NCBI GenBank assembly: GCA_033807695.1
Contig: CM066306.1
Coordinates: 3,038,001-3,102,000 of the forward strand
Reading direction: 5' to 3'
Source of the DNA: Daedaleopsis sinensis
Taxonomy: Eukaryota > Basidiomycota > Agaricomycetes > Polyporales > Polyporaceae
DNA: 64,000 bases
Shown here: positions 36,906 through 59,279 of the stretch, one piece after another
Numbering within the stretch: position 1 is the stretch's first letter
How the letters are laid out: each line of letters starts with the position of its first letter
Position numbers and translations under genes: made by a program
Notes under the pieces: generated by a model
What the model saw: the letters and a program-made list of their open reading frames with translations, nothing else
Database searches by the model: none
What the model was told of the DNA's origin: nothing

Positions 36906-38128
36906 CTACATTCCGGAGTCGACCGTCGTGATAGATATCATAGAGGCGCTGGGATCGTATCCCTCGTCGACTAGAATCGAGAACGTCTCCCCATCTTCGC
37001 TCAGCATAACAGAGGTGCCATCCCCATCATACGCTGTCACAAACGACATCGTGTCTTCGTCGTCATCCTCCAAGCCGTCCTCAAGCCGGGTGATCGCGAG
37101 GTTAGTGATAGATCGCACGCTGTAGCTAGGCATGCTCATGCCCAGATCGGCGATGCGTCGGTTCTCGGCGCCGGGAACCAGTTCAGCAAGACCAGACACT
37201 AGTCATAGAGGGTTAGGGGCACGCGCGAGCCGATATGAGCTGATGTCCAGACGTACCCGAATACGATCTAGGAACCTTCCCCTTGTATGGTCTTCCCGAT
37301 TCGTCGCCGGGGCGCTTGCTGGAGGATAGTCTGACAGAGCCCCCCTCTGCAGGAACGGTCAGGGCTCTGAACTAGCTATATGTGAGAGTAGCCCCATACC
37401 GTCGCATTGGACTTTCAGGTCAACGCCTGCGCCAGCCACAATCTTTAAGTCCTTGATTTGGATATACAACGTTCCCGGTGCTGGCGTCCCTGAAGGTCCA
37501 TTCAGTTGAACACGTTGGTCTATGATATAGCAGTGGAATATGAGGCCCTATTCCGTATGACTAGGAAGAGAACGTACCCTGAGGATGGGGGTCCTCCTCA
37601 GCGCCTGTACTACTTGTCAGTGCCTTCCTCTGCTTCTCGTCTAATATCGGACGTCTCGCTGCGGTAGCCGATATAGTCTATGATGATAGGATAATGATGA
37701 TTAAGACCGTCGCTTCTTAGCAGGTTCTTAAGAGCTGTAGAAGGCGAGATATGGTACCTGAACGGCAATATAGTAGCTATCAACCGAATTGGAGTAGTTG
37801 CGGGACATAGAGAAGACTTCTATGGGATTCTTGACGATATCTCTGAACCTCGTAGATGGGAGGGTTTCTCGTGTTTGTAGCACACTATGGAGTCATGAAT
37901 TGATCTCGTTAATGGGGATGAATATAGAAGTAGAGCTCACAATGCTTCTGAAGTTCTGAGGTCTTCCAAGTCGTGCTGGGAAAAGAGATGCTGGTTCTCT
38001 TCCATGATCGTGGCGATCTTCCTCTCCTTGTCCGCAGCTCGTTCCTGAATCTTGGTAGGGGACATACGCGAAGCGATGGTGACGAGTATCTGTACAACAG
38101 GAGTGATGACATCCAGAGCAAGCGGCAT
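36906..38128 (-). CDS. C1: unknown protein of 311 aa, six exons
   Basis: Exons 37941-38128, 37758-37884, 37578-37677, 37400-37519, 37257-37364 and 36906-37198 join with intron phases 2, 0, 1, 1, 1 and stay open to the stop, 936 nt in all. Exon 1 encodes a helical N-terminus (MPLALDVITPVVQILVTIAS, then ERAADKERKIATIMEENQHL). Exon 2 holds LPSTRFRDIVKNPIEVFSMS with RNYSNSVDSYYIAVQ. Exon 4 holds a beta-like strand pattern, GTLYIQIKDLKIVAGAGVDL. The last exon holds ELVPGAE, an acidic stretch DGLEDDDEDT and a strand pair around GDGTSVMLSEDGETFSILVD. No membrane segment or signal peptide is obvious. Two paralogues (C2, C3) share it. It starts 401 bp from kinase A2 on the other strand. I do not recognise the family; its function is unknown. 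Confidence 0.85.
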
Positions 38129-38528
38129 GTTTGGCGTCGAGGGGATGAGCAGGCGGGGTGGTCACTGCCAGGGAATCTTCAAGTTAAGTTCAAGCAGTCG
38201 CTCAGAGATCGACAACGACGAACTTCATATTTATGCAGCCGGCGAGTCGCTCGTTCAGCATAGGAGTAAAACGCGCAGCAACTCTTCTGACGCAGAAGTT
38301 CTCAGCAGGGTACAATGGGCGCAACAAGGGGTGCAAGTTTGTTGGGTAAGTGTCATGTCAGTCGTTGTGCTCAGGTTCCCAGCTTGTGCGCCACCAAGGT
38401 GTACAGCGTGTGAATGGGCGCTCGTATAATATCACACGAACGCCCACAATGGAGCCAAGCAATGACAAATAATAAGCGTTCACCACACGCCCTCTGAACT
38501 CTGCTCCCTCCTCCATCCGCTAGTGCAC
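38129..38528. promoter_or_regulatory. Shared 400-bp divergent promoter region of C1 and kinase A2
   Basis: The two start codons face away from each other with 400 bp between. A block at 38441-38476 (CGCCCACAATGGAGCCAAGC and following AATGACAAATAATAAG) is conserved before A1 (34321-34360) and A3 (46222-46257), about 50-110 bp upstream of the kinase ATG. An imperfect inverted repeat, GGGCGCTCGT with ACGAACGCCC, frames TATAATATCAC at about 38417-38446. These are candidate promoter or leader elements. Confidence 0.6.
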
Positions 38529-39886
38529 ATGTACAACGCAGGGACACATGCCAATCATCCTCTACACTACGAGAATCTGCGCGGCGGACTTGTGGACAGC
38601 GAGTACTTCTGGAGGGACCATTCCAAATGGCTCGCCGAGTCGGGTTACAGGTTACGTCCCCGCTATCAAGAGGATTGGCAACCATCTTGGCTTGAAACGA
38701 AGAGGCCAACATATAAGAGCGAGGACGGATTGACAACTATGGTGAGTACTAATCTACTGCTTCCTGTAGTCTCGCTCAATCCCGTTCAAAGGTGTCTGTG
38801 GCCATGGACGCGGTTCGGATTTCCGACGGTCGTGTTGTTTCAATCAAGAAGGTTTCGAGGACCAAGCACCCTGATGAGGAAGAAATACTTCGATCCCTCA
38901 CACATGAAGAACTCCTTAAGGATCCTACCAACCACACCGTGCCTCTCTACGAGATCCTCCAATCGCCTCTTGACCCCGATTGCTTCTTCATTGTCATGCC
39001 CTATCTCACCCGCATTTATATGATCAAATTCGCGACGGTTGGAGAGGCTATCGAGTGCTTCCGGCAACTGTTCGAGGTGAGTAGTTCTCGAAGCTCTCAC
39101 TTCAGCAGACGCTAAGGCCCAAAGGGAACAGGGCTTGAAATTCATCCATAGTCGCCGTGTCGCACATAGGTGTGAACTGTCTTATCGTTTAACACGATAT
39201 CTAGCTGACGGATATCATTAGCGATATAACCTTGGTGAATGTCATGATGGATGCTACGCCCCTCTACTCAGACATACCTCACCCCTCTTATGCCTATCCG
39301 CAAAGGAGTTACGACTTCGAACGGAAAATCAAGAAGTACACCCGCACTGATCGTCCTACACGATACTACTATATCGACTTTGGATTGTCCGCCAAGTTTA
39401 ATCCCGGGGAGGAGACCATATCGCCCATCAACATCGGGGGTGATAAAACTCTTCCGGAGTACGAGAACCCGTTAGGAATGTACAATCCCTTCAAGGCTGA
39501 TATCTACACGCTCGGCAACCTCATTCGTCAAAGATTCATGGATGTGAGTTCGCATGCACGGGATCGCATGCATGGGATATACGTTGTCGTATAGTTTCGC
39601 TGACTTCGTCGCGTCCATCTTTCAGGAAAGCCATTGCCTCCAGTTCTTAGCCCCTCTGGTCGCCGACATGACCAAGAAGAAGCCCGAAGATCGTCCTTCA
39701 ATCGAAGAAGCGTATCGACGCTTTGAAGAGATACGCTCTTCGTTGTCTTCGTGGACTCTCAGGTCTCGGTTTGTCTATCGGGATGAGTTTTTCATCGCGC
39801 GGATCTTTCGAGCCTGTCGCCATGTCGTTCGCACTAGCATGTGGATTGTGAAGAAGACACCAGCCCTCCCCACCCCTCCGCAGTGA
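38529..39886 (+). CDS. Kinase A2: protein-kinase-like protein, 372 aa, HSD variant
   Basis: Exons 38529-38741, 38792-39076, 39132-39169, 39222-39543 and 39626-39886 join in phase. The intron that splits the catalytic-loop codon is 39170-39221 and again gives AG|C, so the loop reads VAHSDITLVN. Lys of VVSIKK, Glu of EEEIL, YYIDFGLSAKF, LPEYEN, ADIYTLGN and PEDRPS are all present. Relative to A1 it has two extra codons in exon 4 (AYPQRSYDFERK). The last intron is longer than in A1 and A3 through an insertion with repeated GCATGCA. It is head-to-head with C1. Confidence 0.9.
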
Positions 39887-40019
39887 CAGCTCTGTCGTGT
39901 TGTATATCCTGAGTCTTATCTTGCTGTTTCTCGATTATCTGATTGGGTATGTGGACGAACACGCCTCTAGTGAAGTTGAGACTGCATCGTTCACGCGCCG
40001 GTGTATCCATGGTCGCACT

Positions 40020-40690
40020 AGTGAGTGGTACTGTCAAATATCTTCAAAATGAACAAGGGTCAATCTGCAATGTCTAGTTCCGGTTCAATAGCGTCCCGCT
40101 TACATTCGTCTACTTGTCGCAACCGGTCAGCTTTGATAGCCGCTCCCCGCTCCCCCTGCGGACTATGGAGGCCCCGCCGCGGTAAGAGCTTCTCCTGCTT
40201 ATGCACTGCACGACGGTCGACTACCCCAATACAAGGCTTGCCATGGAAGAGTAAGCATCCGAACCCCCGCGCGGGTTCGAAGCGGTTCCCACTACGAGCC
40301 TGCATCGTACGTACGCATGGTCAGGGTTCGGGCTCGATGAGAGAAAATACAACGCACCGCGTGTACGTGGCGGGGGGTCCATCGCGCTCGTCAGTAGCTC
40401 ACATTTCTATTGTTCCGAGGATAACCACCCCAGGGCAGCGGGATGGCACTTTACAACCGGCGGCGACTCATTTTGCAGCGACCCTGTTCAGTTTGACACT
40501 GTTCCTGAGTTTGACACTTGTGATCCAGGGGGCATTCCGGTGCTTTCGGTGCGAATACAGCCTTGAGGTGACCGCTTCTGCCGGTAAGCTTGATTCCATG
40601 GTAGTACTCGACTAGTCGCTTGAAACCTCCAGACACGGAAGAAACCGATCCTTGGGTGCGCGTCGAAATGCGGTTCCGCGCGCCCATAAC
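40020..40690. repeat. Downstream element of the A-type kinases, A2 copy
   Basis: This matches 47775-48470 after A3 and, inverted, 62600-63240 next to A4. Landmarks are ATGAACAAGGGTCAAT at the start and GTACTCGACTAGTCGCTTGA near the end. A variant of the end also occurs at 44130-44190. Frames are interrupted differently in each copy, so it is probably non-coding or decayed. Confidence 0.8.
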
Positions 40691-40973
40691 GTCGCTCTTG
40701 ACTGAAGTCGATATTTGTCCGCTGGCAGTGTCTTCCGAAAATTGCTGCATTATAACGCAACTTCCGCACTGCGCACACATGTACATGCTCAACGCTCACA
40801 TTTCATCGGCCATAGCATTGCAGAGTTGTGTTATGGCGACATGGTGACAGCAATACCGGGAGAACAACGTAACAAGCGACAGCAGTAGCACGAACAGCGA
40901 GGGGGGAAAGTGATGTAGAAGATGACTGGCGGCGAATGGCTAGGAGGCGGGAAGCTACAACGGCAGTACGGGA
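40691..40973. other. Convergent intergenic region between A2 and B1
   Basis: No gene seen. Confidence 0.5.
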
Positions 40974-42284
40974 CTACACCTTGGGAGTCGGAATAGGCGA
41001 GCGTCCGGTCACCAAGTTGGGTATGGCACGGGCAGAAAGGTAGTGTGCGCCCTTGATTAGATTCATGAAGGGCGAGTCTCGTCGTTCCACAAGTCGCTCG
41101 CGAAGCTTGCACCACGACAGCTTAGAGGCGATCTGAGTTAAATCGGCGACAACGGCGTCCATACTCGGACGTTTGTCAGGTGCATCTTGTATCATCCGGC
41201 TGATCAATGGCTCCATGAACGAGAAGTTCGTGTAAACCTTTCAAGTATCAGTACCATGTAGTGGCAGAGCGGAGAGCATGACTCACTTCAAGGAAATCCC
41301 GACGGATGAGATTGCCCATGTAGTAAACATCGGTATGGAACGGATTTCGGGGGGTATGCGGGTCGTTCTGGAACTCTGGAACCGTTTTGTCGCCCCCCAG
41401 GATGGGAACCTCGAGGGGGCGGGTATCGTCTGGACCGTACCGTCGCGACAACCCGAAATCAGTGAAATAGTACTTCACTGGATGTGCGGTGCGAGTATAC
41501 GGGCGTACGTCCCTCTTCAGGTCGCGTGTCTTCCAAGGGCGTTGAGGATGGAATTGGGTTGGTATTATGGGCTTCCACTCCATCATGACGTTCAGCTTCG
41601 AGATGTCTCTACCGACCGAGTTAGACACAAGGCACAACAGCAAGTAATTTAAATGAGCACTAACCTGTGGGCGACCTGTTGCTCGTGGATGAATTGCAAG
41701 CCCTATTGGGCGTGCGGTCTGCATACTAATACTAGCACGGTCAAACATGAGGTGGACTTACCTCAAACGCTTGTCGAAAGAACTCCACAGATTCGCCCAC
41801 AGTCACAAACTTTGGATCGGTGTAGAACCTCAACAGCGGCATGACAAGGAACCGTTGGTCGTCGTCGTGAGGGTCATCTAACACGTCGAGGATTGGACAA
41901 CAGTGGTTGCGAGAGTTCTCAGCGAGGGGCGGAGACGACAAGAAGAGAGCAATCTCGCTTTCAAATGGATGAGTTGACTTCGAGTAGTGTTTAATGGCGA
42001 CCACCTCTCCATCCCTTTCCCTGACAGCGTCCATGACTTTCGTGGTCTGTAGTATCAAAGAGTGAGAAGAGCAACACATAGAGAGGAGTAAGACATACAC
42101 CGGGATATATACCATCCTCGCATTGCAAACGAGATCTCTCCGTTGTCTGCCATGAGGGAACCCAGTTTGGAGAGTACCGGGGACGAAGGAGATAGCCGCA
42201 ACGTTGGAGCCATTCGTAACGGTCCCGCCAGAAGATCTCTGATTCAGACAGCAGACCCTTCCGAAGGGCATCTTCCCCAACCAT
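40974..42284 (-). CDS. Kinase B1: protein-kinase-like protein, 364 aa
   Basis: Exons 42099-42284, 41762-42046, 41665-41702, 41287-41608 and 40974-41237 join in phase. It is the B subfamily type: same intron positions as A and identical lengths for exons 2, 3 and 4 (285, 38, 322 nt), but a divergent sequence. The N-terminus has EIFWRDRYEWLQRCGYLLRP. Landmarks are VVAIKHYSKS (Lys), FESEIALFL (Glu), and the catalytic loop VAHRDISKLN, where the split codon is AG|A and therefore Arg. YYFTDFGLSRRY, PEFQND, HTDVYYMGNLIRR and DKRPSMD follow. All catalytic residues are present, so this may be an active kinase. Exon 1 ends at GGT before the GTATGT donor at 42098. It is head-to-head with D1, 665 bp away. 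Confidence 0.9.
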
Positions 42285-42949
42285 GTTACCTCGAGCTTAG
42301 ATGCACAGAGATATGAGCTGGAATGTAGGCCGGAGAGAACAGCAGGTCGGGCATCAGAGGACAAAGTGCGAACGACATCGGACGTGACAAGGTTTGCGGA
42401 CGGAGACAAGCGCGGAAACACGTGGCGTAACAAATGCATGCAAACTCCCACGTCATGTCACAGTCCGACGCTCCTTGCTGAATTTCCTGAACCACTACTA
42501 GTAGCTATAGTACTAAGTAGTACTAGCTAGTACTACTTAGTAACTGCCGCCTGCGCCCAGACAGGCCCAGACTTGTCGAACAGCGTCCGGGGCTTCCTGC
42601 GTAAGCGCTGACTTGCTTGTGAATTCTGGCCGGCGAGGTGCTGGCACTGGCAACATGGTATGATGCGCCGTCTTGAACTTCACTTACATCTTTCCAATCT
42701 CGGGAGTTCTTGTTGCACTTACTGCCACGCAATTTAGCCAACCTACGGCCCTTACGTCTAAAGCCCCCGCGCGCATGACATTAAACCCACGATCCTGGCA
42801 ACATGACTCTTTGACTACAGACTACTGCCGCAACTCCCTCCGGACATACTCCTAGGTCCTCTTCTCTCTCCTCTCGTAGCATATCGCACCTTCGATCACC
42901 GACAAGGAGCTCACTCGATCATAGCGACACTTCGAACGAACGTGACGAT
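42285..42949. promoter_or_regulatory. Divergent promoter region of B1 and D1, with a perfect palindrome
   Basis: A 28-bp perfect palindrome (half-site CTAAGTAGTACTAG) lies at 42513-42540 and begins the element shared with 34185-34320. A related half, ACTAGTAGCTATAGTACTA, precedes it. It is a candidate binding site for a dimeric regulator or a hairpin-forming repeat. Otherwise no gene is seen in the interval. Confidence 0.55.
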
Positions 42950-43988
42950 ATGGGTGATTCGGAGCAGATCTCTCCCTCTTCCGATCCTAATCCTAATTCG
43001 AACGACGACATCTCCGCCGATTCGGTGGTGCGAGCCCCCCGCTGGCTTGGGCCGCTCAAGCGATGGCATCCCAGATACCAACTGAATCGTGGCTTAGGCT
43101 ACTATTTCGAGGGTGTCAAAAACATCAGATATGTCCTGGTCGCTCATGATGACTGGAGGCAAAAGGCTGAGATGCGAGACCTCGTTGACGAGGGCATCAG
43201 GTGAGTGCATTCCGAGTATCATCGCCGCCGGTTGATTAATATTTTAGAATCATCGGGGACTTTGGGGAGATTCGCGGTCGATCTAAGACCTTGTCGGTCG
43301 ACGAATGTCGGACGTGGAAGCGTGATGCAAGACGATTTCTCAACAGCGCTGAGGTATGTCCTTCGCCTTTCAGTAAATCGGGCATCTGTTCATGGACATC
43401 GTACTACGTCCTCACCGACAGAGCTCGTCCCATACAGCACGAATCACATCTCTTAAAAAATATCTGAGAGAACCAAATCCCTTCACGGATAGCAACGCTC
43501 GTGAGTGGTCCATAACTCACTGAACATTGTCCTCGCTCATTCTTCGACAGCGTCTGGAGTTTCCACTCCCCACTACTCCATACGCAATGTCGTTCCGAGG
43601 AGTCCAAGATTCGGAAACAGAGAAGATATATGGGAAGCACTTGTTCCATCGAGTCTGCTGCCCGTCCCCGAAGTCTCGTGTCAGTACTATGTCCCTCTCC
43701 GCCGTTATATCATCTGATGTACGACTTGCAGCGCTTGTGAATGCTCTCGCCATTGACGACAGCATCACTAACCTATCAGCCAGGGTGCCACCGGAGCGTA
43801 TGGACACTGTGCTAGGAATGCCGCGGCCCGGTACGGGTATAGACGAACATGACCCCCCTGCAGAAGACGATGACCCGCGATCAGCGACACCGTCCACACC
43901 CGCTGCACAGTACGAGTGCCCTCCTCGCCGTGTCATTCGCCGTTGCTCTTCTCATCCGAACATGGGTATGATAAGTCACGTTCCCTGA
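42950..43988 (+). CDS. D1: unknown protein, five or more exons, 3' end uncertain
   Basis: Exons 42950-43200, 43248-43353, 43422-43500 and 43551-43672 join with phases 2, 0, 1, matching D2 exon by exon (exon 2 is 106 nt in both). The product has a helical region, YQLNRGLGYYFEG followed by VLVAHDDWRQKAEMRDLVDE, then CRTWKRDARRFLNSAE, then WEALVPSSLLPVPE, where D2 reads EAVVFSSLPIPPVP. The final exon is unclear: the frame simply continues to a stop at 43717, or a later exon reaches the stop at 43988 through an acidic segment (PPAEDDDPRSATPSTPAAQY). The family is unknown to me. It is paired head-to-head with kinase B1. Confidence 0.7.
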
Positions 43989-44703
43989 CGGCACCTTGTT
44001 CATCGAGTGAATACACTTCTATGTATGTATGTATATAGATTGCTGACGAGGGCTCTGCTGGGTGATTGGCTTCAGAATGTACTAGTTGCTCAGATAGGTT
44101 TCACGAGTGCGTTTTTGCCGGTTTGGTTACATCGAAGTAGGACTCGACTAGTCCGAGTCGCTTGAACCCTCCGGACACGGTAGAAGCCGGTTCTTACTAC
44201 TTTGGAGCCTGAGGTGGCACTTAGGACGATTGCGCAGATTACGAACAAACGCACCCAGACTATTCCCGATCCAGCGGACTGAGCTGAATTCACTAGCGAT
44301 AATAACAATACAATTCATGGTAAGTCGAGTAAGGCCTAGTAGTAGTACCTACTGGCACTGCCATGGAGACCCGACTCTCTCAGAAAGAGCGTTACTAGTA
44401 TTCGTGCCGGTAACCGCGCACGACACATGATATCGATCTACTGTCGCTCCTTGATACGACTCAGAGCCATCCACCATGGGCTCGCTTCGCCGACGTTGGT
44501 GCAGCTTAGCATCGGATGTGTAGAGTCACTATCGGTATCGTATAATCTTGCTCCCTTGACGAGATTCCGTCCGTGGTACATAGTAGGCGATTTCCAGAGT
44601 GAGCCGGAAGATGAGCATGGAATCACCTGTGAATATAGCGATCTTGTGCCAGTGTCAGAGAGCATTGCCACATGAGAGTCACACAAAGACTCACCCGCTT
44701 CCA
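43989..44703. other. Intergenic, partly duplicated sequence
   Basis: No gene. 44130-44190 resembles the end of the A downstream element, and 44310 onwards matches 36300-36905. Confidence 0.6.
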
Positions 44704-45920
44704 CTACATTCCGGGGTCAACCGTCGCGAGGGAAATCAGAGATCCATTGGGATCGTATCCCTCGTCGACTAGAATCGAGAACGTCTCCCCATCTTCGCTC
44801 AGCATAACAGAGGCGCCATCCCCATCAGACGCTGTCATAAACGACATCGTGTCTTCGTCGTCATCCTCCAGGCCGTCCTCAAGCCGGGTAATCGCGAGGT
44901 TAGTGATAGATCGCACGCTGTAGCTAGGCATGCTCATGCCCAGATCGGCGCCGCGTCTGTTCTCGGCGCCGGGAACCAGTTCAGCAAGACCAGACACTAG
45001 TCGTAGAGGGTCAGGGGCTGCGCGAGCTGATATGAGCTGATGTCCAGACGTACCCGAATACGATCTAGGAACCTTCCCCTTGCATGGTCTTCCCGATTCG
45101 TCGCTCGGACGCTTGTTGGAGGACAGTCTGAAGGAGCCCTGGCCCTCTGCAGGAACAGTCAGGGCACTGGACTAGGTATGAGAGAGTAACCCCATACCGT
45201 CGTATTCGAATTCGACGTCAACGCCTGCGCCAGCCATAATCTTTAAGTCCTTGATTTGGACGTACAACGTTCCCGGTGCTGGCGCCCCCGAGCTTGAAGG
45301 TTCATTCAGAGCACGCTGGTCTATGTTGTGGCCTATGTTATAGAAGTGAGATATGACGCCCCGGTTCGCATGAGTGGTAACAGAACGTACCCTGGGGAAG
45401 GGGAGCCTCGCCTGTAGAAGCTGTCTCCGGCTCAAGTACTTGACGTGTCAGTGCGGAAGCCGATATAGCCTATGATGATGTGATGATTAAAACCGTCGCC
45501 TGTTAGTAGGTTCGTCAGAGCTGTAGAAGGGGAGATATGGCACCTGGACAGCAATATAGTATCTATCAACCGAATTGGAATAGTTGCGGGTCTCAGAGAA
45601 TACGTGTATGGGATGCTTGACGATATCTCTGAACCTCGTAGATGGGAGGATCCTTCGTGTTCGTAGCACGCTATCAGGATAGAGTCATGAATTGATCTCG
45701 CCACTGGGGATAAATATGGACGTAAAACGCACTATCGTTGTTTGGTTTTGAGCACTTTCAAGTCACGCTTCGAAAAGAGATGCTTGTTCTCTGCCATGAT
45801 CGTGGCGATTTTCCTCTCCTTGTCCGCAGCTCGTTCTTGCATCTTGGAAGGGGACACATGCGAAGTAATAGTAACGAGTACCTGCAGAACGGGGGTAATG
45901 ACATCCAGAGCAAGCGGCAT
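44704..45920 (-). pseudogene. C2: paralogue of C1 with a lost splice acceptor before exon 5
   Basis: Exons 45733-45920, 45544-45670, 45391-45469, 45198-45320 and 44704-44996 match C1 exons 1, 2, 3, 4 and 6 with the same phases. Exon 1 (188 nt) and exon 2 (127 nt) have identical lengths, and most residues agree (ERAADKERKIATIMAENKHL, LPSTRFRDIVKHPIHVFSET, GTLYVQIKDLKIMAGAGVDV). Exon 5 of C1 begins after CAGAG; here the same place reads CCAGTG, so the AG at the exon border is gone, and the nearby AGs give stops. Exons 4 and 6 are both compatible (phase 1), so skipping exon 5 would still give an open product about 36 residues shorter. It could be a pseudogene or a shortened isoform. It is head-to-head with kinase A3, 382 bp away. 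Confidence 0.75.
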
Positions 45921-46302
45921 AGTTGGCGACGAGAAGATAGGAAGGCGTGTGGGCAGTGGTCACTTGGTGGTGACTGGGGAATGTTGCAATCGCTTGATTG
46001 AAAACGACGGAGCATATTTATGCGGCTGGCGAGTCGCTCGCAGTGCATAAAAATGAGACAAACTGTTACTCTTCAGACGTAGAAGCTCTTAGAAGGGTAC
46101 AACGGGCGCAACAAGGCCGGTGCCAGTGTCATCATGTCAGTTGTGCGGATGAGGTTCTCGGCGCTCATTCTGTGCCACCAGGGACAGCGTGTGAATGGGC
46201 CCTCGCATAATCTCACACGAACGCCCACAGCGGAGCCAAGCAATGATAAACAATGAGAGTTCGACTCGCCCATCTGCCCCCCTCCTCGATCCCCAATTAC
46301 AT
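45921..46302. promoter_or_regulatory. Divergent promoter region of C2 and kinase A3
   Basis: This is the same arrangement as between C1 and A2. The conserved leader block at 46222-46257 reads ACGCCCACAGCGGAGCCAAG and on to ATGATAAACAATGAG. Confidence 0.6.
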
Positions 46303-47645
46303 ATGTACGACGCAGGGACACATGACAATCATCCTCTACACTTCGAGAATCTGCCCGGCGGACTCCTGGACGACGAGTACTTTTGGAGGGATCACTCTAA
46401 ATGGCTTGCCGAGTCGGGTTACAGGCTACGTCCCCGCTATCAAGAGGATTGGCAACCATCTTGGCTTAAAACAAAGAAGGAAATATATGAGAGCGAGGAC
46501 GGATTAACAACCATGGTAAGTACTAATATAATGCTTCCCGCAGTTTTGCTCAATCCCGCATCAAGGTGTCTGCGACCATGGACGCGGTTCGGGTCTCCGA
46601 CGGTCGTGTTGTTTCAATCAAGAGGGTTTCCAAGACCGATCACCCTGATGAGGAAGAGATACTTCGGTCCCTCACGCATGAAGAAGTCCTCAAGGATCCC
46701 ACCAACCACACTGTACCTCTCTACGAAATCCTTCAATCGCCTCTTGACCCCGATTGCTTCTTCATTGTGATGCCCTATCTCACCCTCATTCATATGATCA
46801 AGTTCGCGACGGTTGGAGAGGCTTTGGAGTGCTTCCGACAACTGTTCGAGGTGAGTACTTCTCGAAGCCTCACTTCAGCATACGCTGAGGTGCAAACGGA
46901 ACAGGGCTTGAAGTTCATCCATAGTCGCCGTGTGGCACATAGGTGTGAACTGTCTTGCTGATCAGCACGATATCTGGCTGACGGATATCAATAGCGATAT
47001 AACCTTACTGAATGTCATGATGGATCCTACACCCCTCTACTCGGACATACCTCACCCCGCCTATGCCTATCCGCAAAGGAGTTACGGCTTCGAACGGAAA
47101 GTCAAGACGTACACCCGCACCGGTCATCCTACACGATACTACTATATCGACTTTGGATTGTCCGCCAAGTTTAATCCCGGGGAGGAGACCATATCACCCA
47201 TCAACATTGGGGGTGATAAAACTCTTCCGGAGTACGAGAACCCGTTAGGAATGTACAATCCCTTCAAGGCTGATATCTACACGCTCGGCAACCTCATTCG
47301 TCAGAGATTCATGGATGTGAGTCCGCATGCATGGGATGGGTGTAACAATATTGTTTCGCTGACTTCGTCGCGTCCATCTTTCAGGAGAGCCATTGCCTCC
47401 AGTTCTTAGCCCCTCTGGTCGCCGACATGACCAAGAAGAAGCCCGAAGATCGTCCTTCAATCGAAGAAGCGTACCGACGCTTTGAAGAGATACGCTCTTC
47501 GTTGTCTTCGTGGACTCTCAGGTCCCGGTTTGTCTATCGGGATGAGTTTTTCATCGCGCGGATCTTTCGAGCCTGTCGCCACGTCGTTCGCACTAGCATC
47601 TGGGTTGCGAACAAGACGCCAGCCCTCCCTACCCCTCCGCAGTGA
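46303..47645 (+). CDS. Kinase A3: protein-kinase-like protein, 372 aa, HSD variant
   Basis: Exons 46303-46515, 46566-46850, 46905-46942, 46995-47316 and 47385-47645 join in phase. It is very close to A2 in exons 4 and 5. The split codon is again AG|C (VAHSDITLLN). The Lys residue context is VVSIKRV, and DFG, LPEYEN and PEDRPS are intact. The intron before exon 5 lacks the insertion seen in A2 and resembles A1. It is head-to-head with C2. Confidence 0.9.
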
Positions 47646-47774
47646 CAGCTCTGTCGTGTCGTATACCCTGGGTCTTATCTTGCTGTATCTCGATTCAAAT
47701 CTGATTGGATATATGGACGAACACGCCTCTACAGGCTCTACTAGTGAAGTTGAGACTTCATCGTTCACGCGCCG

Positions 47775-48470
47775 GTGTTCTCCATGGTCGCACTAGTGAG
47801 TGGTACTGTCAAATGTCTTCAGAATGAACAAGGGTCAATTTGCAATGTCCAGTTCCGGTTCAATAACCTCCCGCTTGCATTCGTCTGCTTGTCGCAACCG
47901 GTCAGCTTTGATAGGCGCCCCCCCTGCGGACTATGGAGGACCCGTCGCGACCGACAAAAAGAGTTACTATCCGAAGCGGTAAGAGCTTCTTCCGCCTGTG
48001 CACTGCGCGACGGTCGACTACCCCAATACAAGGCTTGCCATGGAAGAGTAAGCATCCGAACCCCGCGCGGGTTCGAAGCGGTTCCCACTACGAAGCCTGC
48101 ATCGTACGTACGCATGGTCAGGGTTCGGGCTCGATGAGAGAAAATACAACGCACCGCGTGTACGTGGCGGGGGGTTCATCGCGCTCGTCAGTAGCGCACA
48201 GATTTATTGTTCCGAGGATAACCACCCCTGGGCGGCGGGATGGTACCTTACATCTGGCGGCGACTCGTTTTGCGACGACCCTGTATCGTCTGGCAGTTGC
48301 AAGGGGGCTTCTGAATCCGGTGCGAATACAGCCTTGAGCTGACCGCTTCTGCCGGTAAGCTTGGTTCCATGGTAGTACTCGACTAGTCGCTTGAAACCTC
48401 CAGACTCCACGGAAGAAACGATCCTTCGGAGGAGTGTACGCCAAAATGCGGTCCCGCGCGCCCACACGGA
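47775..48470. repeat. Downstream element of the A-type kinases, A3 copy
   Basis: It is closely related to 40020-40690, and its inverted relative lies at 62600-63240. The stretch shared with A4 is especially similar (for example the segment with GTGTACGTGGCGGGGGGTTC), so A3 and A4 may be the closest pair. Confidence 0.8.
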
Positions 48471-49550
48471 TGTCTTGACGTTTGTGCGCAGCTTCTTCTG
48501 GAGGTTGCTATGTTATGACTTATCTTCCACGCAGCGTACGCTTCAACTTAGAATGCCTCCTGATATGTACGTGCCTACATTTTATCGCTCATACTATGTA
48601 GGATTGCAGAGTTATAGTATTGAACCCACTTGAGTAAGCTCATATGGTTCTACGGAGCTGCAGAAAAGCATCTTCAAGGAGTAACTTCCCATCATACGGT
48701 ACTGAACGTGAACGGCGGCAACCATCCCTGCATATATGAAACACAACGCTCGCAGCATCGTGGCGGAAGCCGCCAGCGCAGTGGGATCCTAGTCACCTTC
48801 CTTGAGTCCTTATCGATCATCATGAGTCTATGGCTCACCTGATGATGGGCCCGGGCGGGCCAGTTGTGGATCCATGAGTACTGTGATCAGACGATAGCGG
48901 CAATGTCTGCGCGTGGTTAACGCTGATATGTGTGATTGTCAACTTCAGTCGCGAACCACTCCTTCGCATGATCAATCGAGAAGAAACCGATCATAGATAT
49001 TAAGAAAATCCCATCGAGTTCTAGTCATCGCGCACCATGAGAGTCCTACGACATGTAATTTAGCCCAGTGTAGCGAACTCGGCAGCAAATACAACACTTT
49101 ACCACAGAAATCCTTGACGTCGCATGAGATCTACCCAGAGTCCGCACACACGAGAAGTCTGGGCGCGCACGCTGGTGACACACCTCGTTCCTTCCTCCCC
49201 TAATTCCTTGCGACCCTCGCGCTACTGAGATCCGGCCCTCTCAAGAGAAGAAAACGCATCTCGCGCCCGACCGATCCGATGCACAGGCGAGTTCAAGTTC
49301 TTCTTAGTCCGGCGTCGTCCACAGGATCATTGCGACGAACGCGGACGGACTTGCGCGATATCATGACATTGCGACAGCGAAGTAGTAAGCTACACTATAT
49401 TCCAAAGGGAGCAGAGATCACGACGAGGCTGGCAGCGACGCTCGGAATATCTGGGTGGAAGATAACTGGCGACATCGCGGAGTGGCGAGTCAAGAATACC
49501 GTCTGCCACCTCAAGTAATAAGTATACACCAACGATTCAAACAAACATAC
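48471..49550. other. No gene supported
   Basis: A plus-strand frame at 49279-49518 (KLHYIPKGAEITTRLAATLG) is mildly protein-like but isolated. Nothing else is seen. Confidence 0.35.
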
Positions 49551-49559
49551 CATCTTCAC

Positions 49560-49765
49560 ATTCAGACTCGCTCGGTCTATACGTCCTCCGCCACATGTCA
49601 GAGTAGACCCAGTCGGAGGTGTGACTAGTTTCTCGGAGGTAGCCACAGCGCTGAAGGGGCCATTCGTACTAATGCCGGTCTCGCCGGAGGATCTCGGATT
49701 CGGACAACATATCTTTCTGACGAGCATATTCCCCATCCAACCGACGTGGTCTTTGTGTGAATTCA
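49560..49765 (-). pseudogene. Relic of a B-type kinase first exon
   Basis: In one minus-strand frame the sequence reads RQKDMLSESEILRRDRH, a stop, then YEWPLQRCGYL, matching the B1 first exon (LRKGLLSESEIFWRDRYEWL). It ends near an ECEDG-like motif. The remaining exons are absent. It is a stub left by deletion or an incomplete duplication. Confidence 0.6.
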
Positions 49766-49954
49766 AAACGCAGTAACAATCACTGAGGTGCAGGTCACTA
49801 GTGCTATAGATACTATAGTACAATTCCAATAATCGTAACAAAAATTGGGGGCAGTGGGAATATCCTTCGAGACAAGGTGCATGTTGGCAGGTACACTCGC
49901 GGCGCGTAAATTCGTCAACGACCTAGGAGTCCAGACTGAGAGATACGTGGACAG

Positions 49955-51240: not shown

Positions 51241-52697
51241 GGTCGAAGATAGATGTGAATCTGTGCGGATGGGCAGTCGTGTCGAGAGATGGTTTGTGAC
51301 CTCGACAGCGGGAGAGGCTGCGCCCTCTTATACTGCCATGCCTTCCGAGTCAGCTAGTAAGGCTGAGATGTGTCCCCCGTCTAGTACTTACACACAGAAC
51401 ATAGGCCAGCGGCGAGAACAAGGCGGGCGTCGCGCCATGAACGTACAGGTGTCGTGTACGGGTGTCGTGTCGAAGTCGAGTTGTTCCTGTCGTGCGCATC
51501 ATGCCAGAGCGACAGGCCTGGCATGGCGTGGGATAATACTACTAGTGTTTTCACACGTGCGCCCACAAACCCGATTTGGAGGGCACAGCAAAACAAGTGC
51601 AAGCGAAGTGTTGTCGGTGGCCCGGGACATGCCGAATCAAGGTCGCCGACAATCGTTGCCATCCTCCCTCCGACTTTCCGCTACAATCCTCCTCCATACG
51701 AGTTTTGAAGGCCCTTCCACTGAGCTAGTTGAGACTGAGATCTCTCTTTGTGCTGCTGTGTACCGCAAGGACTCGTCCTTCGTCGACTCAGGTCGACTTC
51801 GATAACTTCCCCAGAGGCCGCCGTCGAGATCTCCGAGTCGTTCGCACCACTGGCAGCCTGGCCGCGGGAAAACACCCTCGCTTCCCAGTGTCTCTCCGGA
51901 TGGATGCTTTATCTTACTGGTCTGCTATCTCCCGTAAGTACCGTTGTACTGCCAAGTAAGGATCAGCCTTGTTCCTGCTGCGACAGGAAGCCTGCGCTGG
52001 CATATTGACGCCTCTCGTACGGTCTATGGATAACCCACAAAGATCCCGTATGCCGCTTATGTGTCTGTTTCCGTGGCGATGGGTACAAGGATTGCACAAG
52101 AAGCTATACCGCTTGGATCCTGTGGTTGAGATGAATAGACAAACATGCATGTACGTATAGGCAAGAGGCGAAATCGAACAAAGCACCCATTTTTTTAGGT
52201 CTGTCTAGCGAGCCTGTTGAATGTGTAATAGCAGCTTGAAATTTATTCCGAGAAATCGGCACCGATCCATTGCAAAATCCGAGGCCTGATCGAGATCTGC
52301 GAATTTCGATAACTTGTAGGAAACGGCGAATATGTTATGACAAGCTTCAGCAAGCCACATTATATTTTCAGAGAACGCGAGGGAAAACCCCCTTAACGTC
52401 TACTCCTGTACTAGTCACTCAGAAAACTCCAGCGGCTGGAAAACCTCGAGAAGAGCACACTAACCGATGTCGCCGCCGTGGCTCAAGCCAATCCGGGTCC
52501 GACCCACCGCACCGCTCGCAACTTACATGCTCCCTTGTTCCCAAACGCTATATACACCTACCTGTACTTTAATGGGCGCATTTCCGTGACAGCGGTCGAT
52601 GCGAAGTAGCACGCCGCAATCTTTGTTCTCACCCGCTTCGCTGAACAGACCAGAGCAGGCGTGGCAATGCGGAGCAACCGTTGACGCAACAATCTCG
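51241..52697. other. No gene supported
   Basis: A plus-strand frame at 51454-51805 is open but has no motif I know. No kinase exon is found where a head-to-head partner of C3 would be expected. Confidence 0.35.
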
Positions 52698-54485
52698 ACC
52701 GTGAGAGTACAAGTGATGAAATAGCATTGGGATTTCCTGCAAAACGACAGCAGTACAGTAGATGATAGCGGTGTAAAAATAATAGAGGGCGAGGGGCCAG
52801 CGAGGCATGGGAGCATGGGAGGTCAAGGTAGACGGTATTCGATCAGCGGTGAACCGACTTTCCCCCAGGAGTGGGAATGGGATGGCGGAATGTGAGAACA
52901 AGGGGCACCGTGCGACAGGAAACATGATACACATTTTTCCAGAAATTCACGGTTTGGCTGTCCTTTTTCAAGATGACGCGTTCACGTAGCGTCCAGCTGT
53001 TGAGTTGCGACATGATAGTCGCAAACGACGACACTACTTCGTCCATAGTGGGACGTGCGCTCGGCTCGTCCTGAACCATGCGAGCGATTAGCTCGTCCAT
53101 GAAGCCGAAGTTGGTATATTCCTACGACGCCAAAGCATCAGCACATGCAGTGTCACCGAAGTAGCATACTACGTTGACAGACCTGGAGGAAGTATCTGCG
53201 AATGAGATTTCCCATGTAGTACACGTCGGTGTGGAACGGATTGCGCGGAGTCGACCTGTCGTTGCGAAACTCCGGCACAGTTTTGTCTCCACCCAGCAAA
53301 GGTACTTCTAATGGGTTCTTGTCTCCTGGGTCATATCTCCGGGAGTGACCAAAGTCGGTGAAGTAATATTTCACGGGGTATCGGGTGCGCGAGCGAGGGC
53401 TCACGAAGTATCGGAAGTCTAACGACATTCGCGGACTCTGAGGATGGAATTGCTTGGGAAGAATCGGCCGTGAATCCATCATGACGTTGAGCCTTGATAT
53501 GTCGCTGATGGTTTGTGGTCAGAAAAGAATCACCCGGGGTGTCCGAGATCGCAAAGCGCACTCACCGGTGAGCGATATGATGCTGGTGCATGAACTGAAG
53601 GCCCTAAATGTCGACTCAACATGGCATGAGCGATATGATTCACAAGGATGTACATACCTCAAACATTTGCCGAAAAAACTCTACAGCCTCGCCAACCGTG
53701 TCCATTCTTGGCTCATCGAAACGGCGAAGTAGCGGCATGACGATTAATTCTAGTCTCTCGTCGTATGGATCTTGGAGGACTTCGAGAATAGGACAGCAGT
53801 GGTTACGTGGATTCGAGGCAAGCTCCTCTGTAGAGAAGTATGTTCCGATCTGGCCCTCCCACGGGGCAAGCACTTTCTCTACTCGCTTGATCATGACAAT
53901 ATTACCCTCGCTCACCCTCACGGCGTCCATGACTTTGAATGTCTTATGCTGCCATCAGGATAAAACGGCATAGTAGAGCAAGATGGGCTTACAACCACTT
54001 TGACGCCGTCCTCACAATCCAGACTTGACTTGTTGGTTTTGTGCCAAGAGGGGATCCAGCCAGGTTTATACCGGTGCCGCAGTCGGTAACCTTTTCTGCC
54101 CAGCCAGTCGTAGCGATCGCGCCAGAATACTTCTCGTTCAGGGAGTGTAAAGAGGTCTGCAGCTGGTGAGGATGTCATCGCGGGGGAAGAGAGGCTGGCA
54201 AATGGGATACACTCGGAGCACGCTCATAGAGGTGGTCGGAGAGAACATACGGCGTGGGAAAGAGGTGCAAGTGCCGTCGCTTACACGAGCGCCCAATGAA
54301 GTTGTGTGCGCTTATGTACGGCTCTGGCCATTGTTCTCTTTCAAGCTATCGGTATCCCGACCATTGGTCCTCGTTCTTGCCATCCTGATGTGGTTCCCTC
54401 CGGTGGCGCTACAAACGACATGGGTAGTGGGTGCTGTCCTTATGTCATTGTCATTGTTCAGCTCTGGGTACTAATAGCGGCAAGA
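52698..54485. repeat. 1.8-kb segmental duplication, copy 1 (carries B2)
   Basis: It is nearly identical to 60686-62460 in direct orientation, including introns and flanks. Landmarks are GTGAGAGTACAAGTGATGAA at the left end and TTGTTCAGCTCTGGGTACTA at the right. Confidence 0.9.
52843..54178 (-). CDS. Kinase B2: protein-kinase-like protein, 369 aa
   Basis: Exons 53993-54178, 53658-53942, 53566-53603, 53183-53504 and 52843-53121 join in phase. The catalytic loop reads IAHRDISRLN, with the Arg codon split CG|C. Other landmarks are IVMIKRVEKV (Lys), EGQIGTYF, YYFTDFGHSRRY, PEFRND, HTDVYYMGN and ARPTMDE. The last exon is 15 nt longer than in B1, ending TPGGKSVHR. It is intact. The DFG is followed by His rather than Leu. 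Confidence 0.88.
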
Positions 54486-54646
54486 CTAGTAGTGGTTTGG
54501 TAAGAACAAGTCACTGTTAACAACTGAGAGCGACGATAGATAGCGACATGACAGCGATATAACACAAAGACAAACAAGTCTGGTCTGGTTGGAAATGGCG
54601 AGAACGAATGAAGCACTAGGATGCACGAGCTGCTAGCAGAACACAC

Positions 54647-55967
54647 TCAGGGCTTCGGGGTAGGGATAGGTGAGCGGCGAGTGAGAAAGTTTGGTACGGC
54701 ACGAGAAGAGACGTAGTGAACGCCTTTGAGAAGATTCATAAAGTGCGAGTCCCGTCGCTCAACAAGTCGCTCACGGAGCTTCCACCACGATAGCTTAGAG
54801 GCGATTGAGCGGAATTCGGCGACGACTTCGTCCATAGTCGGACGCTTCTCTGGTGCGTCCTGGACCATACGCGTGATCAAGGGCTCCATGAAGGCGAAGT
54901 TGCTGTAAGTCTGTTTGACGTTAGTTAGCCAACTTCGTTATAGACCAAAGAAGAGCATAGTAGGCGTCGAACCTGGAGGAAGTCGCACCGTATCAAATTT
55001 CCCATATAGTACACATCAGTGTAGAACGGATTGCGGGGAGTACGGTGATCGTTCTTGAACTCGGGGACGGACCTATCGCCTCCCATGATAGGAAGCTCCA
55101 GCGGATTCGTGTCCTCTGGGCTGTACCGTCTTGATAGTCCATAGTCGGTGAAGTAATACTTGACAGGTCGTGCTGTCCGGGTATGAGGGCTGACAAACTT
55201 TGCATTGTCGCGTGTCCGCCACGGTAATTGGGGATGAAACATATTCGGTAATATGGGCTTTGGATCCATCATGATATTCAGTTTCGAGATGTCACTGTGC
55301 AACTACTCAGATCACGCGGGCTTGGGCTAGAAGACGTGCACGAACCGGTGAGCTATGCGGAGGTCGTGCATGAGCTGTAATCCCTGCGGGCAACGTCAGT
55401 CAGTGTACACGATGATACACATGTCTCTAGGCCTACCTCAAACGTTTGACGGAAGAATTCCATAGCTTCTCCGACAGTGGCGAACTTAGGATCGTCGTAC
55501 AGCCTCAGAAGAGGCATGATGACGAAACGTTCGTCACTGTCGGTAGGGTCATCGAAGACATCGAGGATTGGGCAGAAATGATTGCGGGGGTCATCTGTGA
55601 CTGGCGGAGACGAGAGGTAGAGTGCAATATCACTCTCATAAGGATGCGTAGACTTGGAGTAATGTTTGATGACCACCATCTCGCCGTATTTGTCTCTGAC
55701 AGCATCCATGACCTTCGTAGTCTAGAAACAGTATAAGTACGTGAGATATCGTCCAAGGATGCAACTCACCAGTGGCACAATGCCGTCCTCGCACTGAGAA
55801 TACCACTTGCTTGTGCCCCTCCAAGAAGGGACCCAGTCGGGTGCATATCGAGGTCGAAGAGTGTAGCCTAAACTTCGAAACCATTCGTACCGGTCCCTCC
55901 AGAAGATCTCGAGTTCGGTGAGCAAGCCTTCCCTCATCGCACGGAGTTCATCCTCGATCGTGGGCAT
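54647..55967 (-). CDS. Kinase B3: protein-kinase-like protein, 368 aa
   Basis: Exons 55770-55967, 55437-55721, 55346-55383, 54973-55294 and 54647-54910 join in phase. The loop reads IAHRDISKLN (split codon CG|T). Also present are MVVIKHYSKS, YESDIALYL, YYFTDYGLSRRY, PEFKND, YTDVYYMGN and EKRPTMDE. The metal-binding motif is DYG instead of DFG, a conservative change found in some active kinases. It lies in tandem with B2 upstream of it and B4 behind it, all on the minus strand. Confidence 0.88.
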
Positions 55968-56449
55968 GGCGAGAGAATAGTAGACACGTATGAGCGACTC
56001 AAGCAGGAGACAGGAGAGATGGTCTTGCGGAATAGAACTACTCGGACGGTGTGGTACTAGTAGACTAAGTGGTGACCGGTGACCAGTCAGTCAAGCGCCA
56101 CACGTATTGTGTCCTCCCACCGTCACGTCACAGTCGGTATTGTTATCTACCCGATCTGCCCGTCACGTAGTCACAGGACTCCCTGCTTAACGCAAGACTT
56201 TACGGCGGTATACGGCGGTATACTGTGCGTGATCAAATAACTTGCGCTAAATCATCAATGGAAACCTGATCTGATACGAGCCATATATGACTACAACATT
56301 CGGTAAGTTGAACAACTGGCGGGATAGAGAGAGTGGATGATAGCGACGCAAGTGACCTGACGAGAGCTCGATATAGCACGATGCAGAGGAATGTGATTGC
56401 GGTTAAACACAGCGATAGTGGATGCTAGATGTGCGGAGTGAGATGGTCA
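55968..56449. other. Intergenic, no gene
   Basis: A small direct repeat, TACGGCGGTATA twice, lies at about 56200-56222. Nothing else is seen. Confidence 0.5.
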
Positions 56450-57782
56450 CTACGCCTTCGGACTTGGAAGAGGGGGGCGGCGGTTCAACCAGAGAGGAAG
56501 AGTGCGGAGGGCGGCGTGGTGGACATCCTTCAGGAAGTTCACGGTCCGACTGTCCTTGCGCTCCGCCAGTCGTTCCCGGAGTTGACAGTTAGAGAGTTTT
56601 GACACGAGCTCTTTATAGGATGCGACAACCTCGTCCATGGTGGGGCGTTTACTCGGATCGTCGTGAACCATCCGTGCTATCAGCGGATCCATAAATGTCA
56701 GATTCGAATACATCTATCGCGCGACTCATGAGATATCGCACACAGCGGGCAGACGCAAGGCGACTTACCTGTAGGAAGTTTTGCCGTATGAAGTTTCCCA
56801 TGTAGTACACGTCGGTATGGAACGGATTTCGAGGTATAGTCCTGTCGTTCTGGAACTCAGGCACGGACTTATCACCCCCCATGATCGGTGGTTCCAGGGG
56901 ATTGGTTTTTTCTGGGCTGTAGTGTCGCGACAGCCCGAAGTCGATGATATAATACGAAACTGGGTGCGCAGTGCGTGAACGTGGGGCCACAGGGCGTTTG
57001 AAATCTCTTGACATGCCAGGAGATTGAGGGTGATATAGGTTGGGATAGATCGGTTTCGGGTCCATCATCACATTGAGCATAGATATATCGCTACATTTCC
57101 CCGTAAGCAAATCACAGTGAGTATAGGTAGTCATAACAGACCGATGGGCAACGTGATGCTCATGCATGAATTGGAGACACTGGCGAGAGATACATGAGTG
57201 ACCGCGTGAAGAACGTCTGTGACAAGTTAGGACATACCTGAAAAGTTTGACGGTATAACTCCAACGCTTCCCCGACGGTCTCCAACTTGGGGCTATAGTA
57301 TCGCCGGAGGAGGGGCATGACAATCAACTGCACGTCCTTGTCGTACGGATCTTCGAGTACTTCGAGAGTGGGACAACAGTGGTTCCGAGGGTCAGAGGCG
57401 AGAGGAGATGACGAAAGATAGAGTCCTATTTCCCCTTCAAACGGATGCCTCGACTTGTCTATACGCTTGATCACAACGACGCTGTTGTCCTTGAGCCGGA
57501 TGGCATCCAATACCTTCGCTGTCTGGGACGATTGCGGGTTGCGGGTTAGAACGGGTGATATGGCATACACTGAGCGTGTCGCACCTGTGGCCACACGCCA
57601 TCTTCACAGTCAAGGCGAGACTTTTTCAGTGCTTTCCATGAAGGAACCCAGTCAGGCTTGTATCGGGGACGTAACTGGTAGCCAACACCGAGAAGCCAAT
57701 CGTAACGGTCGCGCCAGAAGATCTCGAGGTCTGAGAGAAGTCCCTCAGCAACGGATGCTACGTTCAGGTTCAGAGAGGTCAT
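56450..57782 (-). CDS. Kinase B4: protein-kinase-like protein, about 368 aa
   Basis: Exons 57585-57782, 57238-57522, 57142-57179, 56769-57090 and 56450-56713 join in phase. I chose the ATG at 57782 (MTSLNLN) because it aligns with the B2 start MTSS; an in-frame ATG at 57824 is also possible. The loop reads VAHRDISMLN (split codon CG|C). Also present are VVVIKRIDKS, FEGEIGLYL, YYIIDFGLSRHY, PEFQND, HTDVYYMGN and SKRPTMDE. All catalytic residues are kept. It is head-to-head with D2, 419 bp away. Confidence 0.88.
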
Positions 57783-58201
57783 GAACAGTGCAAGGGAGGG
57801 GGCACGGTTTGAGTCTGGAGGCATCAACCGTCACGCATCCTTAGTGACGAACGGGCGTCTTGAGTGAGCGTCACCCACGTGTCCAAACAAAAACACAGGA
57901 TTTTCCCATGTCCTCGGATACAAACCCCATTGATGCAAGTTGCCCTTGTGCCAGTTCTGTACGTGGGTTCATCCTGCTGCCAAAACCTGTCCCCATCTGC
58001 AGCGATGCGATGCGAACTTTTGCGTATTGTGTGCTCACTGGTTCCCTAGCGATTCTCTCGTAGGAAACTCAGGAGGCTGTTCTGTTCACACCGTTTACGT
58101 CTAGCCACCGCAACGCAATGGCGCGCACAACGCCTTAAGCTTCCCCCCTCGAACGAATTCCGGCCCCTACGACCCCGTTCCCCTTGATCCTCCTTCTACA
58201 T
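57783..58201. promoter_or_regulatory. Divergent promoter region of B4 and D2
   Basis: About 420 bp separate the two start codons. No further gene is seen inside. The layout repeats that of B1-D1. Confidence 0.5.
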
Positions 58202-59279
58202 ATGCAGACCTTTGATTCATTTGCTGCATCCCCCCCTCAACTTGTCGAACTTGCATCTGCCACAAAGTCGAAAGGAGTCGGCCGCGTAAGTCGTCAAGTT
58301 GCTCTGTCAGTTAGCCGAGGATTAATATGGGAGGCTCCTTCCGTTGCTTCCGTTACTTCTACAGCTGGACCCCTCGCTCAGTCGCCCTTTCCGCGACGAG
58401 CGGCCAAATGAGCGCATACTGCGCTTGCCGTGGTTCATCCGGAACCTACTCAAGGACTATCAAGTTCAAAAAGGACGATTCTACCACTCTCGAGGAGCGC
58501 AGGTCCTTCGGGAGACCTTGGAAACGCACACGGAATTCGCGAATGAAACTATGGCTAAGGAGCTGCTTGTGCGGAACGTCCAGTGAGTATCCCGCCCACG
58601 ATTCATGTAGTTATCATTGTCTAGCATCAGCACAAAAACAGGGTCGCCGCCAATCTTCAAACGTTACGCCAAGACCCGAGCCGCGCGAGTCGTCAGGCAT
58701 ATCGCAATTGGAAACATGATGCCCGCGATTTCATGGCAGACGTGATGGTACCGGGGTATATGACCGATGACAGTCGGTAGCTCGCCCTGAATATCTCTTT
58801 TCAGGTCTCATCCTCTCTTGTAAGCGCACAATACATGGAAGCAAGCGTGCAACTTGAACCGCCTCGCCGTCGGTCCCTTGACGATAGCGATATCCGTGAG
58901 GAAAATTAGCGGTGCTCCCCGGCGACGTCTAACCCGCGCTGCTACAGATACATACTCAGGTAGAAGCACGCCTTTCCCTTGGAGACGCTCCCCGTCAGAG
59001 ATCGAGGCAGTTGTATTCAGTAGCCTGCCAATACCGCCAGTCCCAGGTGAGTTCTAATTTTAGTTGTTCGGCAATGGTCTGACCATGCGAGTAGGACCGT
59101 CAGGTACCGTGCATGCAGAAGGAGACTCGGGATCAGACATCGTTTGCGCCGCAGGTTTTGAGATGACTTTAATCCACGAGCCGGCTCCAACGTTGGCAGA
59201 AACGGTAGACGATATCGAGGACGATGCTAACTCTCGACGCGCACTTCTTCCTCGCTCTCCGTCTGCGATTACACTATGA
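58202..59279 (+). CDS. D2: unknown protein of 261 aa, six exons
   Basis: Exons 58202-58285, 58365-58582, 58642-58747, 58805-58895, 58948-59046 and 59092-59279 join in phase, 786 nt in all. The last intron (45 nt) has a CTGAC branch-like motif before CATGCGAG. Residues: a helical part with LPWFIRNLLKDYQVQKGRFY and VLRETLETHTEFANETMAKE, then YRNWKHDARDFMADVM, then a Pro-rich linker (SSLPIPPVP) and a beta-like end with GPSGTVHAEGDSGSDIVCAA. The phases after the helical exon (2, 0, 1, 1) equal those of family C, and the C-terminal strand pattern resembles that of C3. I infer common descent, but function is unknown. It is head-to-head with kinase B4. Confidence 0.82.

Follow-up and report, generated by a model that had tools for sequence, protein, structure and literature searches.

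A family of fungal protein kinases paired head-to-head with fast-evolving partner genes

In a 64,000-nucleotide stretch of a fungal genome (the window; C7:3038001-3102000, from an assembly of 51.6 Mb in 24 contigs), four genes encoding protein kinases of one family each lie head-to-head with a gene of another kind, here called the partner, and searches of the assembly show the same arrangement around kinases of this family on several contigs. Kinase and partner duplicate together, with the partner changing faster. The explanation that we favour, to which we give roughly an even chance, is an ancient two-gene unit in which a soluble, catalytically competent kinase and a fast-evolving partner are divergently arranged and inherited together, the partner acting as anchor, regulator or substrate. 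Positions without a contig name are in window numbering; contigs are named as such, or with a colon and coordinate, to keep them apart from genes of similar name.

Paired genes in the window

A sequence-only reading of the window had described four divergent kinase/partner pairs 0.38-0.67 kb apart, and the start codons indeed measure 377-665 bp from each other. Partner C1 (36906..38128, minus strand; 305 amino acids, 6 exons), which carries an N-terminal hydrophobic stretch, a helical region and an acidic tail, faces kinase A2 (38529..39886, plus strand; 372 amino acids and 5 exons in a lenient model) across 400 bp from start codon to start codon (38129..38528). Kinase B1 (40974..42284, minus; 364 amino acids) faces partner D1 (42950..43988, plus; 273 amino acids) across 665 bp (42285..42949), and kinase B4 (56450..57824, minus; 382 amino acids) faces partner D2 (58202..59279, plus; 260 amino acids) across 377 bp (57825..58201); in both D1 and D2, introns of phase 2 then 0 flank a 106-nt exon. 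The fourth pair comprises C2 (44704..45920, minus), a copy of C1 with 80% amino acid identity and a ratio of nonsynonymous to synonymous divergence (dN/dS) of 0.55, and A3 (46303..47645, plus), 382 bp away (45921..46302). The A3 start is aligned with that of A2; an in-frame ATG upstream at 46243 would shorten the spacing to 322 bp.

Counting these four as separate cases was mistaken in one respect: A2-C1 and A3-C2 are copies of a single 3.9-kb segmental duplication (36788..40686 and 44586..48464, 85% identity), which leaves three pairings in the window that did not arise by recent copying of one another. As the same reading had it, four of the five C and D genes (C1, C2, D1 and D2) have a divergent kinase. 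The unpaired fifth, C3 (49955..51240, minus; 333 amino acids in the model), adjoins an N-terminal fragment of a B-type kinase with stops (49525..49734, minus) just past its 3' end, possibly left over from a neighbour since lost. Genes lying head-to-head are nothing unusual in compact genomes; the surprise is the identity of the neighbour and not the orientation itself.

Gene models for A1-A3 and B1-B5 came from a simple exon-intron predictor, and those for C1, C2, D1 and D2 from hand-checked splice sites; the C3 start was set by hand and the remainder predicted, and kinase A4 was completed using the next contig stretch.

Pairing across the genome

A genome search with kinase K1101 as query, with which searches using A2 and B1 agree, defined the family as 42 genes with an N-terminal match: 11 at C3:1.07-1.16 Mb, 6 on contig C5, 2 on contig C6, 3 at C7:0.09-0.20 Mb, 5 at C7:2.64-2.84 Mb, 13 at C7:3.07-3.12 Mb, and one each on contigs C10 and C11. 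The count excludes five fragments (C6:2161, C7:2667, C7:3087.6, C7:3097.9 and C11:1524) and a weak, distant kinase match at C11:3089947 (E 1.4e-4). A head-to-head partner lies within 1 kb of 23 of the 42 kinases, or 20 if types F, G1 and G2 are set aside (these were found by position and have weak gene models, and the likeness of G1 to G2 was judged by eye only). Three more (K2829, K1109 and K1159) have a partner remnant, three (C7:92, C7:138 and C5:457) have a head-to-head partner 3-9 kb off, and no partner was found for the remaining 13 (A1, A4, B2, B3, B5, K2638, K2836, K2838, K1093, K1150, K2154, K3111 and C5:431), a weak statement for the kinase at C5:430.7, whose flank was covered by protein search alone. 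The divergent flank was read for 31 of the 42 kinases, and a tblastn search of their DNA for partner remnants (E<=0.05) found none beyond those already tallied; the remnant at K1109 was found by tblastn and that beside K1159 by eye only.

The E type provides the clearest view of how partners are placed. In the contig C3 cluster, E-type genes found by position stand beside 7 of 11 kinases, with partner remnants beside two more (1109 kb and 1159 kb); one of the seven, E4, has no match to the hydrophobic start and an uncertain start codon. Outside this cluster, the E5 query gave one strong match (contig C11, 561.4 kb) and weak matches on contig C10, contig C7 and at three places on contig C5 (E 0.006-0.7). 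With the N-terminal part of the contig C10 partner as second query, the E-type loci found by sequence number ten (in kb, C11:561.4; C10:3186.1; C5:415.5, 449.4, 459.8, 497.1 and 713.6; C7:88.7, 129.4 and 196.0). All ten are head-to-head with a family kinase, seven of them at 533-583 bp; by orientation and distance, the other three lie ~3.4, 7.3 and 8.4 kb from theirs, and transposon insertions might account for partners 3-9 kb from their kinases. Directly behind the E-type partner at C5:498.0-498.25 kb, the sequence resembles, by eye, a copia-type gag.

With the cluster on contig C3 included, 17 of 17 E-type loci (7 by position, 10 by sequence) are head-to-head, 14 of them within 1 kb. In 13 of these close pairs, drawn from clusters on contigs C3, C5, C7, C10 and C11, the starts are 480-595 bp apart, spacings that are approximate since they derive partly from the ends of search matches (the 14th pair, that of E4, is left out). 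Random placement would put at least 7 of 10 loci within 1 kb with p ~2e-22, or p ~3e-14 if only four clusters are taken as independent (4/4), both rough values that ignore gene density. Chance neighbourhood as the cause of the pairing is ruled out by these genome-wide partner sequence searches: inside this genome, a kinase of the family is the divergent neighbour of partner relatives far above chance, in keeping with what the sequence-only reading had proposed.

The C type occurs at six places, all on contig C7. Two of the three outside the window are head-to-head with a kinase: one at 2833.7 kb, 431 bp from K2834, and one at 2829.0 kb, consisting of exon 1 only, 437 bp from K2829; the third, at 2810 kb, lacks exon 1 and is unpaired. 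The second of these three (C7:2828.5-2829.0 kb) stops after exon 1 near an A/T-rich run. On the same contig, D3 (~3121-3122 kb), whose model matches D1 at E 8e-4, lies 451 bp from a kinase at 3122.5 kb, and G-type genes at 3115 and 3119 kb lie, in their models, 374 and 359 bp from theirs; the F type on contig C6 is 818 bp from a kinase. Genome searches with D1, D2, D3 and F returned only the queries themselves and noise at E>=0.14, so these types allow no pairing test. Noise matches at E 0.14-0.73 (D- and F-type searches) were excluded from the counts, as was a match at C7:3094674-3094841 (E 0.07, internal stops) inside B4 on the other strand, taken as chance.

Outside the family, six protein-kinase matches of equal or almost equal score are spaced ~10.06 kb apart at C9:779510-830293, probably a tandem array of a long kinase-carrying repeat.

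Joint inheritance and rates of change

On a tree of 30 of the 42 kinases (the 31 with flank DNA minus K2154), C partners are confined to the A clade and D partners to the B clade, G partners belong to one pair, and E and F partners are found in a third clade, though some of the forks behind this confinement have moderate support only. E labels are clustered on the tree (5 of 500 shuffles as low), and placing all partner labels takes 15 changes, where shuffled labels need 18.1 on average (2 of 200 shuffles were as low). Synonymous divergence (dS) agrees closely between kinases and partners in the C/A units: 0.195 for A2/A3 against 0.206 for C1/C2, and 0.434 for A2/K2834 against 0.448 for C1/C2833. 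The suggestion that an ancient pair duplicated as a unit thus gains support from both the clade-confined partner types and the matching C/A values. In E units the agreement is poorer (kinase/partner 0.098/0.183, 0.150/0.190, 0.245/0.339 and 0.215/0.106), perhaps as a result of gene conversion. Kinase and partner trees of the contig C3 cluster share a deep split into two groups, within which the order differs or is unsettled.

Nonsynonymous divergence (dN) of partners was 1.2 to 3 times that of kinases in seven matched comparisons. Partner dN/dS was above the kinase value in the C/A units and for E5 against E6, E7 and E1, but not for E1-E2 (0.39 vs 0.44) or E1-E3 (0.43 vs 0.45). There was no sign of positive selection on partners, with dN/dS of 0.22-0.55 across whole partner proteins.

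The kinase and its relatives

Matches to PF00069 in Pfam (A2 42.9 and B1 39.7 bits, cut-off 31.7) identify the kinases as protein kinases. At E<=1e-10, a search with A2 gave 311 database relatives (from 1,360 candidates), including a Daedaleopsis nitida protein at 66% identity. The genes have introns and the best-named kinase relatives are from Polyporales, which makes the host probably a wood-decay basidiomycete. Judged by names among the best 120 of the 311, the family is spread over Agaricomycetes, under titles such as 'kinase-like' and 'hypothetical protein'. The Lys, His, Asp, Asn and DFG Asp and Gly columns were invariant in 72 aligned relatives, and a structure model of a kinase relative (predicted local distance difference test score, pLDDT, 95) had 1,986 PDB fold matches at E<=0.001, the best 50 of which are kinases or pseudokinases; a PDB sequence search with B1 gave no match at E<=0.001. 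Only 1 of the best 120 kinase relatives has a 19-residue stretch above a Kyte-Doolittle hydropathy (KD) of 1.6. Judging from these sequences, the kinase is probably soluble or cytosolic and catalytically active.

A few family members depart from this description. K3111 (C7:3110198-3111327) has NFA in place of DFG and no HRD motif in its model, features by which it is read as a degenerate copy or pseudokinase, and P0020 of Mycena filopes (639 amino acids) contains two kinase stretches in one protein and scores 20.3 bits against PF17667. Fusion of kinase and partner was considered for three of the longer relatives (P0039, P0082 and P0092) and rejected, their extra parts being unlike the partner by eye.

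The partner proteins

Partners were less easily placed. In Pfam, C1, C3, D1, D2, D3, E1, E5, F, the G1 model and P0001 all fell below every cut-off; NCBIfam, with P0001 as sole partner query, gave no match, and a viral fold library gave nothing at E<=0.001. The contrast across species with the 311 relatives of A2 is large: C1 had none at E<=1 (2,892 candidates), and E5 matched a single D. nitida protein, P0001 (2,118 candidates), in a search that requires shared five-residue words and that very distant partners would escape.

A hydrophobic stretch of 19 residues near the N terminus (KD 2.0-2.4 in the four E types measured, 1.87 in C1, 1.78 in F and 1.71 in C2) suggests that the partner is anchored in the membrane: this looks to be so in the measured E types, F, C1 and C2, but not clearly in C3 and the D types. 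The model of P0001, an E-type protein, has helices at 4-32, 35-59, 64-90 and 106-128, a block with pLDDT of 77-94 where most else is below 50. As modelled, the E type would consist of an N-terminal hydrophobic helix followed by a three-helix bundle.

C1, C2, D1-D3, E1, E3, E5-E7 and F share two introns, the first of phase 2 and the second of phase 0, that flank a 103-145-nt exon in the helical region (127 nt in C1 and C2, 106 in D1 and D2, 103 in D3, 145 in E types, and 139 by the predictor in F), a pattern present in 1 of 29 other predicted genes. By hand count, C1, E5, E10 and F have a proline after the hydrophobic stretch, ~39-44 codons ahead of the first of these introns. G1 has neither intron, and its introns are of other phases. 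The common intron pair hints at a relation among the C, D, E and F types, with G left out.

Interpretation and alternatives

In the two-gene unit that we favour, the short intergenic region would serve as a putative shared promoter, and the partner would be embedded in the membrane, exposing its bundle and tail to the cytosol, and may bind its cognate kinase there, whether to anchor it, to regulate it or to be its substrate. Kinase and partner could then act together as a receptor kinase divided between two proteins, and the fast change of the partner might reflect the signal that it reads, or specificity among many parallel pairs per cell. A wider proposal seems unlikely to us at this stage: that Agaricomycetes carry many such parallel, self-matching kinase/partner units (split receptor kinases), in which each kinase works solely with the membrane-anchored helical protein of the gene facing it, and that the units jointly make up an expandable recognition or immune-like repertoire.

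Several observations weigh against the two-gene unit or parts of it. Thirteen of 42 kinases, several of them tandem copies, are partnerless, and C3 lacks a kinase; pairing is therefore not obligatory. C and D labels cluster on the kinase tree no more than shuffled labels do, since kinases without a partner are dispersed through the clades. Membrane anchoring does not look uniform: no D type shows a clear hydrophobic stretch within its first 120 residues (KD 0.29 in D1, 0.45 in D2 and 1.38 in D3), and that of C3 is weak (1.08). Nor is the relation among partner types firm, as C3 has the first shared intron but the second lies elsewhere in its model, and profile-profile comparison of C, D, E and F, with profiles of 1-9 sequences, gave no significant similarity (best E-F, probability 7%, E 0.005); homology of the C, D, E, F and G types is not supported by that comparison. 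With regard to the kinase, catalytic loops usually have a lysine two residues after HRD, which by eye is not in place here, and 6 of 31 kinase models have a stretch above KD 1.5, located either within the kinase core or at ends that are doubtful. Finally, the gene models were built with a home-made predictor and with splice sites set by hand.

Some of these points would be expected if the two genes simply travelled together. An ancestral head-to-head pair may have been multiplied by tandem and dispersed duplication and stayed linked without any joint work, an alternative that accommodates the plain segmental duplication of C1-A2 and C2-A3, the 13 kinases that manage without a partner, and arrays rich in tandem kinase copies. 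Passive linkage fits less well with the retention of the pairing, and of E-type spacing, across several contigs and kinase clades, or with the E-type loci, none of which was found away from a family kinase; we regard it as rather unlikely.

Another possibility is that the pair gates cell death or immunity, with the partner a membrane-attacking helical bundle (like MLKL, HeLo or plant coiled-coil (CC) domains) switched on by the kinase as RIPK3 switches on MLKL. RIPK3-MLKL and fungal HeLo/HELL cell-death proteins offer the comparison (PMC12881547). The logic would be shared if, in our system too, the kinase acts on a membrane protein with a helical bundle. Searches for HeLo, HELL, MLKL and plant CC families found none at E<=10 for C1, C3, D1-D3, E1, E5, F and the G1 model, and none at E<=1 for P0001; the fold match between partner and HeLo/HELL/MLKL is within the noise for helical bundles. 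We consider this alternative improbable. A selfish or protective toxin-antidote pair, with a toxic partner and protective kinase or the reverse, would suit the tight linkage, many copies and broken remnants, but is very improbable given that both genes also occur alone (13 kinases, and C3), which is awkward unless other copies protect, and that the kinase family is spread over Agaricomycetes.

Relation to known systems

The two-gene unit resembles several known systems in part. Basidiomycete HD1/HD2 mating-type pairs are head-to-head, co-inherited and in part fast-evolving, with several parallel pairs per array, but they encode homeodomain transcription factors, whereas the pairs described here join a kinase to a protein without a homeodomain match (none among the Pfam matches listed at E<=10). 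Bidirectional gene pairs and head-to-head plant nucleotide-binding leucine-rich repeat (NLR) pairs are divergent genes with starts within 1 kb; the layout is alike, although the 377-665 bp given here separate start codons and not transcription starts. Unlike those pairs, ours all draw on one kinase family, which forms many of them on several contigs, and in every case the partner is uncharacterised.

Among kinases, the Pfam family Pkinase_fungal (PF17667), also called FunK1, is likewise a lineage-specific fungal family; B1 fell below its cut-off (13.8 against 24.1 bits) and A2 was not among the listed matches. FslK, a fungi-specific lineage of kinases, is reported to have undergone expansion in Agaricomycetes; most members carry no extra domain, and the lineage is predicted to be active and is related to tyrosine kinases (PMC3937382). 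Our kinases are like them by description (expansion, few extra domains, predicted activity), and the abstract and first part of the results mention neither a partner gene nor a head-to-head layout (PMC3937382). We found no description of such kinase/partner pairs in the literature searched, a coverage that excludes most subscription journals. The libraries and literature searched likewise held no counterpart to the partner families or to the pairing.

For every paired kinase, the co-inherited partner supplies a cognate protein on which tests can be made. Should the partners turn out to be membrane-bound sensors or executioners, the pairs would represent a type of fungal signalling or immune system that we have not found described.

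Other features of the window

Five further kinase genes in the window were without a detected partner: A1 (34430..35770, plus), the tandem copies B2 (52843..54178, minus) and B3 (54647..55967, minus), B5 (60819..62153, minus; 95% amino acid identity to B2), and A4 (63376..64000, minus), which continues beyond the window to ~64740 on the joined contig and is an inverted copy (95% DNA identity) of the A2 part of the duplicated segment, without C1. An incomplete B-type kinase stretch lies at 59453..60262 (minus). At the start of the window, a predicted protein at 34-3498 (plus) resembles, by eye, a PIF1-like helicase, and another at 3515-7865 (minus) a Ty3-type polyprotein.

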